Notes under the pieces: model-generated
Database searches by the model: none
The model's input: only the letters and a program-made list of their open reading frames with translations
What the model was told of the DNA's origin: nothing
From: Desulforamulus aquiferis
GTDB lineage: Bacteria > Bacillota > Desulfotomaculia > Desulfotomaculales > Desulfotomaculaceae
Assembly (NCBI GenBank): GCA_004143605.1
Contig: AWVY01000021.1
Coordinates: 1 to 34,037, forward strand
Reading direction: 5' to 3'
DNA: 34,037 nt
Position numbers and translations under genes: made by a program
Shown: positions 1,258 to 19,069 of the stretch, piece after piece
Layout of the letters: each line of letters begins with the position of its first letter
Position numbering within the stretch: the first letter of the stretch is position 1

Positions 1258-2637
1258 TTATAGTCCAAAAATACTGCTTATTTTGCTGAAGAATTTAACA
1301 AGAGGTCTATTTAATGTTACTTCTAATTCTCTCTTCTCTGTTTGAACCTTACTTAATTCCTGCTGTGTTAGCTTTAAAGATTTTTGTAAATCCTCACCGC
1401 CCTCCAAAGCCTCCTTTAAATCATTACTGAGGATATTTATGTCCTGATGAAGTCTGCGCTCTTCTATATTTGTCATCTCTTGATATTTTTGTATTTTTTG
1501 CTTAAGCTCCACTATCTCTGTTTGTAGTTCTGCTACCCTTGTACTATACCTCTCCTTTAGTTCAGCCAAACGAGCCTTGTTTTCCCTGTCCCTCTCTTTA
1601 TATTGCTGCAGCTTTGAAAATAAACCCTCCAGGCTGTTTTGATTTTTATCCATTGAACTCTTTAATCTTTGGTTTTCATTTTCTGATTCTTTAGCCTTAC
1701 GTACCCAAAGTCGACATTGGTATAAAATACTGTTTGCTTTATTCTCTGTTCTTTCCAATTCATTGCGGTACCTTAATATCTCTTTCTTCCTTAAATTAAG
1801 CAGTAAATCCTTTTCAGATAATTGGGTTGCTAACTGATTATATTGAGTTACCACCGAGGCCCGCTGGGCTAGGGCGGCTGCAGCTTCCCTCTGGGCCGCT
1901 CCAATTTCATTTAACTGTCGGGACATGTTCTCTGCCTTCTGTACCCATTTTGTGCGATCCTGCTGCCATTGTTTCTTTTGTTTATTTAAAATATTTAGGT
2001 ATCTTTTAACTAATTCATCATATAATAATTGTGCCTGCTGGTTATAATTCCAGACATCACTTCCCATTCTTTCAAAGTATGGAAACTTACCTAATACCTG
2101 TTGGACAGCGGGCTTGCTGGTGGGACGCCACTCGTTTACACACTCAAATATTTGTTGAGTGGACAACCCCCCTTGGTGTAATTTAAGGGCCTTTATTACC
2201 AGGTGCTTTAATGAATATTGTCCAGCCTCAACATTCCATTCCGTTAGTCCCCAATTTCCATTATCTAACTGAATAAATCTCCCATCAGACATTAGAGAAG
2301 CTTCTTCAGCTAGTTTTCTAATTCTTTTCTTTTTGGCAACAGGATTGCTGACTACCTGACGCAGGGCAATGGGTTGCTGTCGTTTAATCAGCATGGCATA
2401 TAAGTGATCATTTTCAGAGTGCCCCTGCAACTTTAGCCGCCACTTTCCATTCTCATCTGTGTAAAAGCAGGGGTGTTGCTTTAGGCATAGCCGGACCTTC
2501 TCAATAACCTGCTGCTGACCATAATCCTGCAGCATTTTTCTTTGCACATAAGGGGCTATCTCTTGAACGGACAGGCCGTCAAAAAAGAATAGAGTCTTTT
2601 TAAGGACATCAGTAAGAGAATTCAATTTAGCCGTCAC
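1258..2637 (-). CDS. Large coiled-coil protein with N-terminal winged-helix-like repeats
   Basis: I do not recognise this 459-residue soluble protein. Residues about 8-200 appear to hold three related segments of about 55 residues, each with an LSxQEI-like helix and ending in a Trp-containing strand: GKWRLK near 64-69, GNWGLTEW near 127-134 and SDVWNY near 193-198. This resembles the HARE/RNA-polymerase-delta type of winged helix. Residues about 205-445 are heptad-rich, charged and Gln/Glu/Lys-rich, so a long coiled coil is expected; a short hydrophobic tail ends at FFSKISSIFGL. There is no signal peptide or membrane segment. The start is a GTG preceded by AGGAAGGTG. The frame is intact, unlike many neighbours. 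It may be a nucleic-acid-binding or structural protein; function is unassigned. Confidence 0.7.
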   Translation of the reverse strand: MTAKLNSLTDVLKKTLFFFDGLSVQEIAPYVQRKMLQDYGQQQVIEKVRLCLKQHPCFYTDENGKWRLKLQGHSENDHLYAMLIKRQQPIALRQVVSNPVAKKKRIRKLAEEASLMSDGRFIQLDNGNWGLTEWNVEAGQYSLKHLVIKALKLHQGGLSTQQIFECVNEWRPTSKPAVQQVLGKFPYFERMGSDVWNYNQQAQLLYDELVKRYLNILNKQKKQWQQDRTKWVQKAENMSRQLNEIGAAQREAAAALAQRASVVTQYNQLATQLSEKDLLLNLRKKEILRYRNELERTENKANSILYQCRLWVRKAKESENENQRLKSSMDKNQNSLEGLFSKLQQYKERDRENKARLAELKERYSTRVAELQTEIVELKQKIQKYQEMTNIEERRLHQDINILSNDLKEALEGGEDLQKSLKLTQQELSKVQTEKRELEVTLNRPLVKFFSKISSIFGL

Positions 2638-2921
2638 TTCTACCCATCACCTTCCTGATTATAATAAAAGGTATATTTGGAATTTAATCCCTTTTTATTA
2701 CTCTTATTATTCCTCTTTTTTGTCCAGTTCCCTGCGTCTTCACTGTAAATTTTTTCCTACAACATTCCCAAAATAGTCTCAACAGGCTGACTAAGTTTGA
2801 CTTATAACTACTTAGTTTTGTCGTATTTATTAAAACAATAATGGCCCATGTCAATAACTTTTTATGTTACTGACTATCCCTCAAGAAGGATTAAAGTAAT
2901 AAATAAAAAACCATTAAATGC
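2638..2921. other. A+T-rich divergent intergenic region
   Basis: This stretch separates the divergent coiled-coil and acuA genes. It is A+T-rich with no plausible small gene, and the rightmost part leads into the acuA promoter. I see no riboswitch motif or repeat. Confidence 0.5.
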
Positions 2922-2951
2922 TTGTAATTATCGGCACAAGTAACATATAAT
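2922..2951 (+). promoter_or_regulatory. Probable sigma-A promoter of acuA
   Basis: TTGTAA (2922-2927) and TATAAT (2946-2951) are separated by 18 nt. The leader of about 70 nt ends in GGGAGGTGATATT before the ATG at 3027. Confidence 0.5.
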
Positions 2952-3026
2952 AAGTTAAAAGGTCATTTTTATTGCTCAAACGGTCAATACTGACCCCCTA
3001 ACGGTAATTACCTGGGAGGTGATATT

Positions 3027-3687
3027 ATGAGCATTGCCCTTAACTCCGAAACTAACAGTCAAAAAGGTTTCCCACCCATTCGCCCCGAAAATGGTGTGCT
3101 CACAACTTCCCGTGGTTTACTTCATTTAGAAGGTCCCTGCACAGCAGATTATATCTCTAGGTTAACCATGGATGAAGGACTGCGGAGTTTTAGACCACCG
3201 GCAAGACAACAGGAAGCCTTGATGCTGATTTCAAACCTCCCGGAGGAAAGGTGTTTATTGCCAGATTTCAGGATAGCATCATCGGCTATGTAACTTTCCA
3301 CTATCCAGATGATTACAGTAGATGGAGTAAGCACCCTATGTACTTGAGTTAGGTGCAGTTGAAGTAAGTCCTGAATGGCGCAAAGACAAAGTAGCCCACT
3401 TTTTATTAACTGAAGCATTTATGCACGATTTTGTTGAAAATCATATTATAATTACTATAGAGTTTTGTTGGCATTGGGATCTAAAAAACAGTGGCTTAGG
3501 CATGATTGAATACCAAAGAATGCTAACCCGGCTATTCTCAAGTGTTGGATTAAAAAAACGTGCCACTGATGACCCTGATATCACTGAACATCCAGCCAAT
3601 GTCATGATGGTTAGATTCGGAAAGAACATACCAAAAGAAGCAATTTTAAAGTTTGAAGAGCTTACATTTTTAAATCGAGGAAGATAA
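3027..3687 (+). CDS. acuA: AcuA-type GNAT acetyltransferase (two frame breaks as sequenced)
   Basis: AcuA is a cytoplasmic GCN5-related acetyltransferase that, in Bacillus, acetylates and inactivates acetyl-CoA synthetase. Family landmarks in order are LLHLEGPC, LRSFRPPARQQEAL, the GNAT core IIGYVTFHYPDDYSRWS, LELGAVEVSPEWR, EFCWHWDLKNSGLGM, the tail ITEHPANVMMVRFGKN, and a final LTFLNR. These are spread over three frames. Restoring one G near 3244 (GAGGGAAAG) and one base near 3343 (TAC-CTT-GAG) yields one continuous protein of about 220 residues, close to the family length. The start ATG has a strong GGGAGGTG site. No acsA, acuB or acuC lies beside it, so this is an orphan acuA. The gene ends just before a strong terminator. 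Confidence 0.88.
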
Positions 3688-3689
3688 AC

Positions 3690-3723
3690 AAAACCTGCAA
3701 TCCAAGATTGCAGGTTTTGTTTT
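3690..3723. terminator. Bidirectional terminator between acuA and guaB
   Basis: A perfect 13-bp stem (AAAACCTGCAATC and its complement) has a 3-nt loop. A T-rich tail follows on the + strand and an A-run precedes the stem, giving U-rich tails on both strands. It lies between convergent genes. Confidence 0.85.
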
Positions 3724-3734
3724 CTTATTTTCAA

Positions 3735-5186
<1,452 letters not shown>

Positions 5187-15263: not shown

Positions 15264-15659
15264 TTAATTAGCTTCGTCATCAGGTTCAATTGCTCCAAAA
15301 TCAGTGGGCAAATCTACATTACCCAGGGATAGGCTTTCACGGACTTTTCTTTCTATCTCCCGGCAAAGTTCCGGACGCTCCTTTAATAAATCCTTGACAT
15401 TCTCTCGTCCTTGACCAAGTCTTTCATCCCCATAGGAGTACCAGGCTCCGCTCTTGTTAATTATCTTTAAATCCGCTGCCACATCCAGGACACTTCCTTC
15501 TCTAGATATCCCTGTACCATACATGATGTCAAACTCAGCAGTTTTAAATGGTGGGGCAACTTTATTCTTTACTACCTTTACCTTGGTGCGGCTACCCACC
15601 ATGTCCGCTCCCTGCTTAATATTCTCTTGCTTACGAACTTCTAATCTAATGGAGGCGTA
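15264..15659 (-). CDS. recA: recA, 3' exon
   Basis: This exon starts immediately after the intron with codons for [20 protein letters not shown] and continues [40 protein letters not shown], then [19 protein letters not shown]. It ends in an acidic tail with [11 protein letters not shown], as RecA usually does. It supplies the L2-proximal strand, the C-terminal domain and the tail: 131 residues in 132 codons including the stop. The frame is intact, but it has no promoter or ribosome binding site of its own, so it can only be made after splicing to the 5' exon (18390-19033). Together the exons encode about 346 residues, normal for RecA. No recX gene follows; the next item is the RNA upstream of rny. 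Confidence 0.95.
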
Positions 15660-15720
15660 GTTGGCTAAGTGCCCAACGCCTTTCTACATTGCTGTAGTAG
15701 GTTTTCAAACACTCGCCACC

Positions 15721-15754
15721 GAACCGTACTTGAAAGTTTCCAATCATACGGCTC
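15721..15754 (-). ncRNA. Group II intron domain V
   Basis: On the minus strand GAGCCGTATG pairs with CGTACGGTTC, including the AGC catalytic triad at positions 2-4. A GAAA tetraloop caps the upper stem, and a bulge falls near the AAG before TACGG. It is 34 nt long, the standard size, and lies 60 nt before the 3' splice site. Confidence 0.92.
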
Positions 15755-15807
15755 TCCAGTTGTTACTAAGATACTTTCAATTTCAATTCATTGGATGATT
15801 CTGCATT

Positions 15808-17740
15808 TTAGTCTAGTTCTCCGTTGTGAAGTTTTCTGTGACAGTTATTTTCTGAACCGTATCCACACAGAACTAGTGTTTTTCTATTCCTGGCGACCAT
15901 TGTTTCTTCCCATTTTTTCTTTCCTTTGAGGTCTTTTAGTTTCCTAACGTGGTGTACCTCGAAAGGACCTGTTTTATCTCCACACCATTCACATTCATCG
16001 GCGAGAAGTCTTTTGATTAGCCATTTCTGCTCCATAGTTGGTATTTGGCATGAAGTCTATGCTTTGGTCAGTTGGTTGGTCGTCAAATATTTTTTTGCAG
16101 AATATTATTTCATCGTAATGAAGTAATGGTACGAAATTAGAATGGCCTTTTTTGTTAGTCCATGTTATTCCCCATTGTCCATCCCTGTAGTATGCTTGTT
16201 CGCCTTGTTCCGTCTTTTTTGACATAAGTTTTGACACTTTTGTCCTATATTTTCCTGCTAGTGTTTTGCAGAAACTTTGTTTAAAGATAAAGTGTGCATT
16301 TGTTAGCTTTGTCTTGACATCAAAGGCAAATTTGTAATATTGATAGAATCCTCTGAACTCAGAATTGTATGCCTTGATTATTTCTAATTCGTCATTGTTG
16401 AGAAATTTAGGTCTGTGTGCGGGCTTCCAGTTCTTGCTATTGGCTTTTGTGTATCCATTTTTAGTCATGAAATTTACTAGAATTTCATGAGGAAGCGATA
16501 GCTTGATACTTTCCACTGCGGTTCTAGCTAATACTTTTCTACCGCTTATTTTCCGCCTTCTAAGGAGGTCTCCTCCTTGATTCACGAATATATCATATCC
16601 AAGGAATCTTACTTTTTCTGAGTTATGGGTTATCAATGTTTTTTCTTGGCTTAATTCTAGGGATAGTCTTTCTTTGAGGAAGATCGTTAACTCCTCTTTA
16701 ACCTTAATAGCATCTTCTTTGGTTCCAATGATACCAATTAAGAAGTCATCGGCGTATCTGACATAATTCATCCGCTTGTATTCAGAGTCATTTTGCTCAT
16801 AAGTTCTGTGTTTTTGAAGTTCTTTTGTAAGCTCCTTTATTTCTCGGATAATTTTTCTCCTTTCCTCTTTCGTGGGTTTTCTGAGGAATAGGTTTTGTTC
16901 TATTTTTTCCATAGCAACTTCCGTTTTATCTGGTGGAAGGGTTTCGAGGAATCGTCGTCTTTTGAATATCTTATCCGCTATAATCTTATATGTTCTATTG
17001 TTCTTCCTCTTTTTACCCTTGTTAAACCCGAGGATGTAATCTTCTACATATCTGTCTAATTCATTGAGATATATATTGGCTAAGATTGGGCTAATTATTC
17101 CACCTTGTGGAGTGCCTGAGTAGGTTGGATAGAACTTGAAATCTTCCATATATCCAGCTTTAAGGAACTTCCAAATAAGTCTTATGAACTTTTCATCCTT
17201 GATACGCTTTCTGAGAAGGTTTATTAGGACTGTGTGTTTAATGTTGTCAAAAAATCCTTTGATGTCACCTTCAACCCACCATCTTGTTCCTGTATATGCT
17301 CCTTTGATTTGAAGTAGAGCCGAGTGACAACTTCTCTTAGGTCTAAATCCATGAGAGTTTTCTGAGAAGTTTTTTTCATAAATGGCTTCTAGGATTAACC
17401 TTACGACTTCTTGTATGAGTTTGTCGTAAAAGGAGGATATTCCCAAAGGCCTTTTCTTATCACTATTTTTCTTAGGAATGTATTGTCTTTTAGCAGGTTT
17501 AGGTTGATAGGATTCATCCTTTAGAACTCTGATTACATCTTCGATCTTTTGTAGACTAAAACCATCTATTGTTTGACCGTCAGAACCTGGTGTCATATTT
17601 CCTTCTTTGGCATAAATTTTTTCATATGCTTTAAGATAGAAATCTCTATTATATAGGTTCCTGTACAATCCTTCGAATACGTACCCATCTTTTTGTGAAT
17701 TGTTATTTAGTATCTCTAAAACATCATCCGGGTTTCTCAT
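15808..17740 (-). CDS. Intron-encoded reverse transcriptase/maturase with HNH domain
   Basis: This protein should promote splicing of the surrounding intron and its mobility by target-primed reverse transcription. In order: an N-terminal region with GNMTPGSDGQTIDGFS, RT motifs with KPAKRQYIPKKNSDKKRPLG and NSHGFRPKRSCHSAL, then WWVEGDIKGFFDNI, SGTPQGGIISPILANIYLNE and the catalytic YADD in MNYVRYADDFLIGI. Maturase domain X covers roughly residues 400-540. The HNH endonuclease domain has CEWCG, FEVHHVRKLKDLKG and KTLVLCGYGSENNCHRKLH, with all zinc and HNH residues visible. The two parts are in different frames: 15995-17740 and 15808-16035. One extra A near 16048 would explain the break (MPIPTMEQKWLIKR). 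The repaired length is about 643 residues. Confidence 0.9.
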
Positions 17741-18384
17741 GGTCTCACACCATAACCTTTCTTTTGTTTTAGATTCACAACCTGTCCCCCTTTGCCATGT
17801 AGTAGTTATTAACTACCTCAGACTACTACGGGGACTCCGTTACCATATAAGGCATTTTCATATCAACATTTCAGGTTATATGTTATCTATGGGTAGTTTA
17901 ACCAAATCGAACATATGTTTTAAGACCTAGTATCTTTTTGTTTCCATAGACGCCCTACTTAGGTAATCCCAGGTTATCCTTATATCATAATTTATCTCTT
18001 TCGTTTAGGTTCCTTTTCGACATTTACCTCTGATAGAGGTTGTGAAGGAAGTGTCCTTTAAGCCTTAATGCAAATTTTAAACATTAGGCATCTTCCTCAG
18101 CTACCAATACTAGACATCTTAGGTAGCCCCAGCCCTTACTTGGCACTTTGTCTGGGATTCAAGCAGTGTAGCTTTGACCATGCGAAAGATTTCCGTCTTG
18201 CCATTCATCTGTACCCTAGATGACTTAGGGTAGGTTATGACTTTCCAACCATGTGGTGGTCGCCCATTCCTTTCGGTTAGGGGTAAGGTTGCTGACGGTA
18301 ACTCATAGGACTGAGTTATCTACTTTCCAGTAGCAATGATATATAGGACTCGTTACAGAATAAGGTTATGCTGCAACTTCCTGG
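17741..18384 (-). ncRNA. 5' non-coding part of the intron (domains I-III and start of IV)
   Basis: This 644-nt stretch between the 5' splice site and the maturase start has no coding sequence and many short complementary segments, as expected for the ribozyme domains I-III. It carries conserved-looking blocks such as CCTAACCGAAAGGAATGGG. The exon-binding loops should lie here; a segment with AAACT (plus-strand near 17890-17900) could pair with the end of the 5' exon (AGTTT), but I could not verify it. Confidence 0.7.
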
Positions 18385-18389
18385 CACAC

Positions 18390-19033
18390 AAACTTTAGCG
18401 CTCTGCCGCCAGTGGTAACTTCAGGCGAGCCATAGATTACGCCCACCTTCTCCCTAATCTGGTTAATGAAAATTACAATGGTCTTGGACTTACTTACTAT
18501 ACCGGTAAGCTTCCTCAAAGCCTGGGACATTAATCTTGCCTGCAGTCCCACATGGGTATCACCCATTTCCCCTTCAATCTCAGCCCTAGGTACTAGGGCG
18601 GCAACCGAGTCAACCACCACCACATCAACTGCGCCACTACGCACCAGAGCTTCACAAATTTCCAAAGCCTGCTCACCTGTGTCCGGTTGGGAAACAAGCA
18701 GGTTTTCAGTGTCTACCCCTAAACGCCTGGCATAAACAGGTCCAGGGCATGCTCTGCATCAATAAAGGCAGCCATACCGCCTTGTTTTTGGGCTTCAGCT
18801 ATTACATGCAGGGCTACTGTGGTTTTACCGGAAGATTCAGGACCATAGACTTCTACCACCCGTCCCCTAGGTACTCCTCCAACTCCCAGGGCAATATCCA
18901 GCGACATGGCGCCTGTTGAAATGGATTCGATGTTAAGTTTGGTAGACTCTCCCAATTTCATGATAGATCCTTTACCAAACTGCTTTTCTATTTGTGACAA
19001 GGCGAGTTCCAGAGCTTTTGATTTATCTGACAT
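18390..19033 (-). CDS. recA: recA, 5' exon (one frame break as sequenced)
   Basis: RecA forms filaments on single-stranded DNA, drives homologous recombination and triggers LexA self-cleavage. This exon carries the N-terminal domain ([27 protein letters not shown]), the Walker A motif [11 protein letters not shown] and FIDAEHALD. Then come [60 protein letters not shown] and TTGGRALKF. The frame is broken near 18740 because one C is missing in a run (GAC-CCT-GTT); repair joins AEHALD to [20 protein letters not shown]. It ends at a phase-0 5' splice site, immediately followed by GTGTG of the intron. ATG at 19033 has an AAAGGAG site. Expression should be SOS-inducible (see operator). Confidence 0.96.
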
Positions 19034-19055: not shown

Positions 19056-19069
19056 TAAACATATGTTCG
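19056..19069 (-). promoter_or_regulatory. LexA (SOS) box of recA
   Basis: CGAACATATGTTTA on the minus strand matches the Gram-positive LexA/DinR consensus CGAACRNRYGTTYC with one or two deviations. It sits a few bases downstream of the predicted transcription start and about 23 nt before the recA start codon. Confidence 0.75.

Follow-up and report, generated by a model that had tools for sequence, protein, structure and literature searches.

How can recA be interrupted within a conserved codon pair, and how did the interrupting element reach this place? The question is raised by the recA locus of Desulforamulus aquiferis, in which the RecA reading frame stops after Phe215 and resumes at Tyr216 on the other side of a 2730-nt insert. 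The whole stretch of DNA analysed here (the window) is 34,037 nt long and contains no tRNA. Comparison at the level of sequence suggests that the insert is probably a mobile group IIA intron of the Ll.LtrB type, and that its homing site is the conserved recA codon pair Lys-Phe | Tyr. We give this reading a probability of about 0.9.

A group II intron in recA of Desulforamulus aquiferis

The features of the locus are given below, with RecA codons numbered after L024, a congener whose RecA is intact.

19033..15264, minus strand: whole split recA
18390..19033, minus strand: recA exon 1, M1 to F215, ending in GGRALKF, with a frame change near 18740
15264..15659, minus strand: recA exon 2, Y216 to stop (RecA profile match)
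15660..18389, minus strand: group IIA intron, 2730 nt, GTGTG...AC, phase 0 (boundaries and Rfam)
15660..15756, minus strand: domains V and VI, with a bulged A at 15666 (-7) (Rfam match and fold)
18390..18395, minus strand: IBS1 AAGTTT on the Lys-Phe codons, exon partner of EBS1
18072..18078, minus strand: delta base A, then EBS1 AAATTT (intron positions 313-318)
15995..17740, minus strand: intron protein, RT (YADD) and maturase domain X, LtrA-like (profile matches)
15811..16056, minus strand: HNH open frame of the intron protein, in a frame different from that of the RT part (PF21368, E 5.6e-23)
19057..19069, minus strand: LexA/SOS-box-like site upstream of recA, CGAACATATGTTT
17908..17920, plus strand: identical SOS-box-like 13-mer in the intron, upstream of the intron protein

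Exon 1 ends with GCG CTA AAG TTT at 18390 and exon 2 starts with TAC GCC TCC ATT at 15659. In the TIGR02012 RecA alignment of the window, positions 122-213 lie upstream of the intron and positions 214-321 downstream, so the junction neither lacks nor repeats a residue. The order of conserved genes around recA is that of the complete congener G003, indicating that this is the native recA locus. The RecA model gives three matches in the assembly, all of them pieces of the split gene, and no second recA was found in this assembly, which is rated 72% complete. RecA should therefore depend on splicing. The initial annotation had placed a phase 0 group II intron between ALKF and YASIR of recA, which is borne out by the boundaries, the RF00029 match and the TIGR02012 continuity. 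It had also proposed that RecA production depends on splicing, and had named an intact second recA, with this copy silent, as one of the findings that would speak against this; with no such copy found, the proposal is supported as an expectation. In a survey of nine genomes of the genus, recA is in pieces in two (G000 and G002), and the other seven show a match over all 262 positions of the RecA model (two such complete matches in G001). In the same order, one genome (G038) is matched eight times by the RecA model, in three cases almost over its whole length.

The intron runs from 18389 to 15660 on the minus strand with the termini GTGTGCCAGG...GCCAAC. Its ends, GTGTG and AC, agree with the GTGYG 5' end and AY 3' end of group II introns. 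The RF00029 match at 15756..15660 covers all 77 model positions with 59.4 bits (gathering score 40, E 2.1e-9), and RF00029 is the sole Rfam family above its gathering score in the window. The fold of this region shows domain V, with its arms where the initial annotation had located them, and domain VI with one bulged A 7 nt from the 3' end. In this model the bulged A at 15666 (-7) is likely the branch point. EBS1 AAATTT pairs with IBS1 AAGTTT with one G.U pair, and the delta A can pair with the exon +1 T. No clear EBS2-IBS2 candidate was seen by eye in this intron. An EBS1 with an adjacent delta base is the group IIA arrangement.

The intron-encoded protein fits the same assignment. Its best match among solved structures is that of LtrA (5g2x, E 1e-118, residues 7-533 of 581). 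The RT and HNH parts lie in different frames in the window, whereas in the congener copy (L040) they are open in a single frame of 702 codons. Searched against its own genome, the protein matches once at E<=1e-30, and TIGR04416 finds two places there, both of them pieces of the recA intron protein. EBS1 with its adjacent delta base, together with a protein of RT, domain X and HNH, place the intron in group IIA, Ll.LtrB type.

A candidate homing site shared among species

The same junction was sought with a degenerate pattern (GRALKF, then GTGYGNC) over one genome each of 84,980 species. The pattern matched 16 stretches, of which nine are recA; the seven without a RecA match were dropped. The nine carriers are Bacillus renqingensis, Clostridia DTU065, Cytobacillus sp. 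S13-E01, Neobacillus paridis, an uncultured Desulfotomaculum, Bacilli AS01, Bacilli AS07, Bacillota STF2_155 and Streptohalobacillus salinus. The RecA search found no intact recA in any of them. Nine species is a lower bound, as the pattern is strict and specific to site 215|216 and to this 5' end. Introns at the ALKF-YAS pair of related recA genes are what the initial annotation had anticipated when it supposed that the site could serve as a homing site common to several species, and this idea is strengthened by their presence in nine further species and by the single clade of their proteins described below. The scan was designed on site 215|216, so the recurrence is to some extent built in, which does not apply to the clade or the divergence gap. 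The strict junction pattern gave 0 matches in viral contigs, and spread of the intron by phage was set aside on this one pattern.

The pairing with the exon allows for synonymous targets. The EBS1 consensus of the site-215 introns, RAAUUU, with its delta base can pair with AARTTY|T. Opposite the Lys wobble position there is a U, which can pair with either Lys codon, and opposite the Phe wobble position an A or G accompanies T or C. Such a difference is seen between the window and its congener, with A versus G in EBS1 where the exon has T versus C. Across the ten site-215 introns, the EBS1 base facing exon position -1 makes nine Watson-Crick pairs and one G.U pair (p 0.033, ignoring kinship). 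Site 123 covaries likewise: L133 has GAACAGG with CCTGTT, and L135 has GAGCAGG with CCTGCT. EBS1 candidates are present in 27 of the 28 recA introns described below, but the stretch searched was wide and unshuffled, so single matches are weak, and a fixed EBS1 position within a site is better evidence. The same candidate search found no EBS1 for the intron within codon 205 of L092.

Eight of the ten site-215 introns encode a protein, and the other two have no long ORF. In a tree with 20 other RT-maturases, the eight proteins form one side of a branch with support 91/99.8. The 20 others comprise 13 from 250 sampled Bacilli genomes, four from plasmids and three from the genus; a protein from another recA site was also included, and L121 was left out for its broken frame. 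The clade bootstrap of 91 is below the usual 95, and long-branch warnings apply to L110, L082 and the protein of the other recA site. RecA adjoins only one of 23 RT-maturase loci within 1.5 kb flanks, and this is the locus whose place in recA had been established before. Two other Bacilli loci, L104 and L105, have related introns that seem to interrupt other genes, with the flanking peptides GDFYEMF and GTLGGGNHFI, which are reminiscent of MutS and RtcB, respectively. Cytobacillus sp. S13-E01 (L008, G043) has 24 TIGR04416 places, many of which share one score and are truncated where a contig ends, as would be seen if a group II intron were repeated in the genome.

Intron age and alternative explanations

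Synonymous divergence separates the intron from the genes around it. Between the window and its congener, pS is 0.275 for the intron protein, 0.62-0.73 for the recA pieces (0.76-0.77 for exons only) and 0.85 for the upstream gene. Between B. renqingensis and N. paridis, it is 0.097 for the intron protein, 0.50-0.52 for recA and 0.64 for a neighbouring gene. The recA pieces run slightly into the introns, and exon-only values are given where computed. Fisher p values for intron protein versus recA, from rounded counts, are 7e-26 and 1e-32 for the two pairs, respectively. The intron protein is well below recA in both pairs, so the intron is younger than the surrounding genes, and this points to movement of the site-215 intron between species. 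Inheritance only, that is a single ancestral entry into recA followed by many losses with no horizontal homing, would agree with the one clade of site-215 proteins, and the pairs L089/L091 and L086/L090 do look vertical. It does not account for the two species pairs in which pS of recA exceeds that of the intron protein by a factor of about 2.2 to 5.4, with the neighbouring gene higher still, and we consider it the least probable of the readings weighed here. A recA that is a dying pseudogene, with an intron and a frameshift and no functional RecA from the locus, has little more in its favor and is very unlikely. Its support comes from two frame changes, one in exon 1 near 18740 and one in the intron protein, and from the lack of any other recA in the assembly. 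But 15 of 24 conserved window genes contain at least one frame change versus proteins of G003, while the same protein set gives 0 of 29 against a second complete congener, G007. The genome, though rated only 72% complete, has 3.57 Mb, within the genus range of 2.7-4.0 Mb. RecA identity to the congener is 88 and 96% on either side of the exon 1 frame change, and the congener's intron-bearing recA has no break besides its introns. The D. aquiferis assembly seems to carry many small indels. Because so many window genes change frame when the control shows none, assembly error is the simplest reading of the frame changes in recA exon 1 and the intron protein; this census argues for error overall and cannot prove each base. 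The exon 1 change is found some 9 nt away from site 96, a position occupied by an intron in relatives, but its reading as the scar of a lost intron was rejected, as such changes are spread over the window.

The intron could instead be a regulatory switch, in line with the layer of control on DNA repair that the initial annotation had inferred, in which splicing efficiency would tune RecA and an internal LexA box would couple maturase supply to SOS. The two identical 13-mers, before recA and in the intron, resemble the SOS-box consensus, and such 13-mers are found likewise upstream of recA and inside the intron of the congener. Matches with at most one mismatch number four in the window versus 0.72 expected, and 2 of 100 shuffles are as high. 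However, the introns of window and congener are near-identical and recently shared, so they are not independent, and no exact match to the 13-mer is present in the introns of the other eight site-215 loci. A switch of this kind is improbable, if somewhat less so than a pseudogene. We therefore retain the mobile group IIA intron with a recA homing site as the preferred reading.

recA genes with several introns and RT-dead maturases

The 215|216 intron is not the only group II intron in recA. In 13 genomes we find 28 such introns at six positions, each with an RF00029 match above the gathering score: five in codon 96, four in codon 123, three in codon 166, five at 205|206, one within codon 205 and ten at 215|216. 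The initial annotation had called insertion into recA rare. This holds for the exact site, given nine species found as a lower bound. In relatives, group II introns occupy several other positions of the gene. Among G042 and 30 relatives, recA is in pieces in five of 31 genomes and gives a complete or nearly complete match in 26. Clostridia DTU065 (L086, 1-5801) and Bacillota STF2_155 (L090, 1-6101) have four group II introns each in recA, and the exon between the 205|206 and 215|216 introns is only 30 nt. Their introns at codons 96, 123 and 215 are 712-962 nt long and have no open frame over 85 codons. In the congener (L040), codon 96 of recA is the site of a second group II intron (1557-4443), which encodes its own, only distantly related RT-HNH protein. 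Group I-like inserts are also found beside group II introns. In L085, the insert of 325 nt follows recA codon 203 (RF00028, E 2.6e-7, below the gathering score). In L088, it is 397 nt long and follows codon 64; it is recognized by its boundary bases only and has no Rfam match at E<=0.1.

Eight of the 13 intron-bearing recA genes contain an intron ORF from which the RT active site is gone but which is still open, under purifying selection where this was measured. These are at site 205|206 in L086, L090 and L133-L135, at 215|216 in L089 and L091, and within codon 205 in L092. YADD is absent, by reading, from L089, L091, L092 and the five site-205 frames. No RVT_1 match is found at E<=1 in the three of these eight proteins that were scanned (L089, L086 and L090). 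All three retain an Intron_maturas2 or GIIM match, with GIIM in both site-205 proteins scanned (L086 and L090). The 205|206 frame has 313 and 316 codons in L086 and L090, and is open over 308-324 codons from stop to stop in all five genomes in which this intron was read. In ten pairs of site-205 frames, pN is 0.27-0.35 versus pS of 0.63-0.87, and dN/dS is 0.16-0.30 in the four of ten pairs in which it is estimable, the other six being saturated. These estimates exclude domains V and VI, which take up the final 110 nt. The 215|216 intron of L089/L091 has a 400-codon frame with dN/dS of 0.12, and the L092 frame has 567 codons.

These settled frames do not look younger than their host gene. In L089/L091, pS is 0.62 for the intron frame versus 0.47-0.56 for recA (p 0.013); in L086/L090, it is 0.74 versus 0.50-0.80 (p 0.11). 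In both pairs the frame at least matches recA in pS, which fits vertical inheritance. Antisense frames and frames outside genes, for L086/L090 among others, were excluded from the comparison. A 79-codon frame downstream of recA (L089:3662-3901, oriented as recA) has a pS of only 0.078 versus L091. Set against the recA value and 0.66 for an upstream frame, it is at odds with the vertical reading of this pair.

At least two further introns with no long ORF accompany the site-205 maturase intron in L086, L090, L133 and L135. L134 has one such intron (longest frame 124 codons), while L089 and L091 have a single intron only. In genomes G042, G046, G048 and G049, TIGR04416 has a single match (E<=0.001), that within the recA intron; additional matches are present in G047 and G043. 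The site-205 maturase may thus act on several introns of the same recA. A wider reading is that several Bacillota have an organelle-like, multi-intron recA, in which the 215|216 lineage homes between species, an RT-dead, MatK-like maturase of settled lineages splices up to four introns and is vertically inherited, and, in the D. aquiferis lineage, a LexA box of the intron may link maturase to SOS. We give this reading slightly less than an even chance.

Proposed mechanism and comparison with known systems

In the mechanism that we propose, the intron would be transcribed together with recA, and its RNA would fold with its own maturase and splice out, leaving RecA function intact. The intron RNP would then reverse-splice into intronless recA alleles, HNH cleavage would prime reverse transcription, and the host would repair the remainder. 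In other lineages the same kind of resident intron has settled, with the RT motifs lost and the maturase domain kept under purifying selection. In one group, further ORF-less introns are present in the same recA, as with chloroplast MatK.

Group II introns are regarded as the ancestors of spliceosomal introns. One essential gene here shows a series from a species-crossing intron, through RT-dead maturases under selection, to genes with four introns (three with no long ORF). How a selfish element turns into a settled intron thereby becomes testable in bacteria, and the D. aquiferis intron would be a natural homing system with a conserved codon pair as target. According to the excerpts of a 2015 review (PMC4424553), most bacterial group II introns lie outside housekeeping genes, those in housekeeping genes are known particularly in cyanobacteria and in the CL and ML lineages, including recA of G. 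kaustophilus, and a degenerate IEP was seen once in a survey of 225 genomes. The same excerpts state that bacteria do not seem to keep non-mobile group II introns for long, a view that a multi-intron, MatK-like recA, if true, contradicts. No description of such a recA or of a shared recA homing lineage was found in a search of open-licence PMC papers or in excerpts of PMC4424553, PMC3522654, PMC4355141 and PMC4853749. What is new is the shared recA homing lineage and the multi-intron recA genes; the D. aquiferis intron itself joins a known kind of recA intron.

The likeness to known systems varies with the part compared. The Ll.LtrB intron of Lactococcus lactis and its LtrA protein (group IIA, ML lineage) share with the D. 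aquiferis intron the EBS1 with adjacent delta base and a protein of RT, domain X and HNH. Ll.LtrB resides in a relaxase gene, while the D. aquiferis lineage sits at recA codons 215|216. Group I introns occur in Bacillus recA, the same gene, but their ribozyme class differs from group II; the L085 and L088 inserts are of this group I-like kind. Geobacillus kaustophilus, like D. aquiferis, has a group II intron in recA, reportedly that of Chee and Takami in 2005. The excerpts of PMC3522654 describe this intron as active, and those of PMC3522654 and PMC4424553 mention one recA intron in this species and no shared site. The settled recA introns resemble the chloroplast trnK intron with MatK, as described in excerpts of PMC4424553, in encoding a maturase with no RT motifs. 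Unlike it, they are bacterial and lie in recA, and any action on neighbouring introns is inferred. C.te.I1 and other ORF-less bacterial group II introns likewise have no ORF. The excerpts of PMC4424553 call ORF-less bacterial introns rare and C.te.I1 the sole known one with no related IEP in its genome. In recA, by contrast, several ORF-less introns share their gene with a degenerate maturase.
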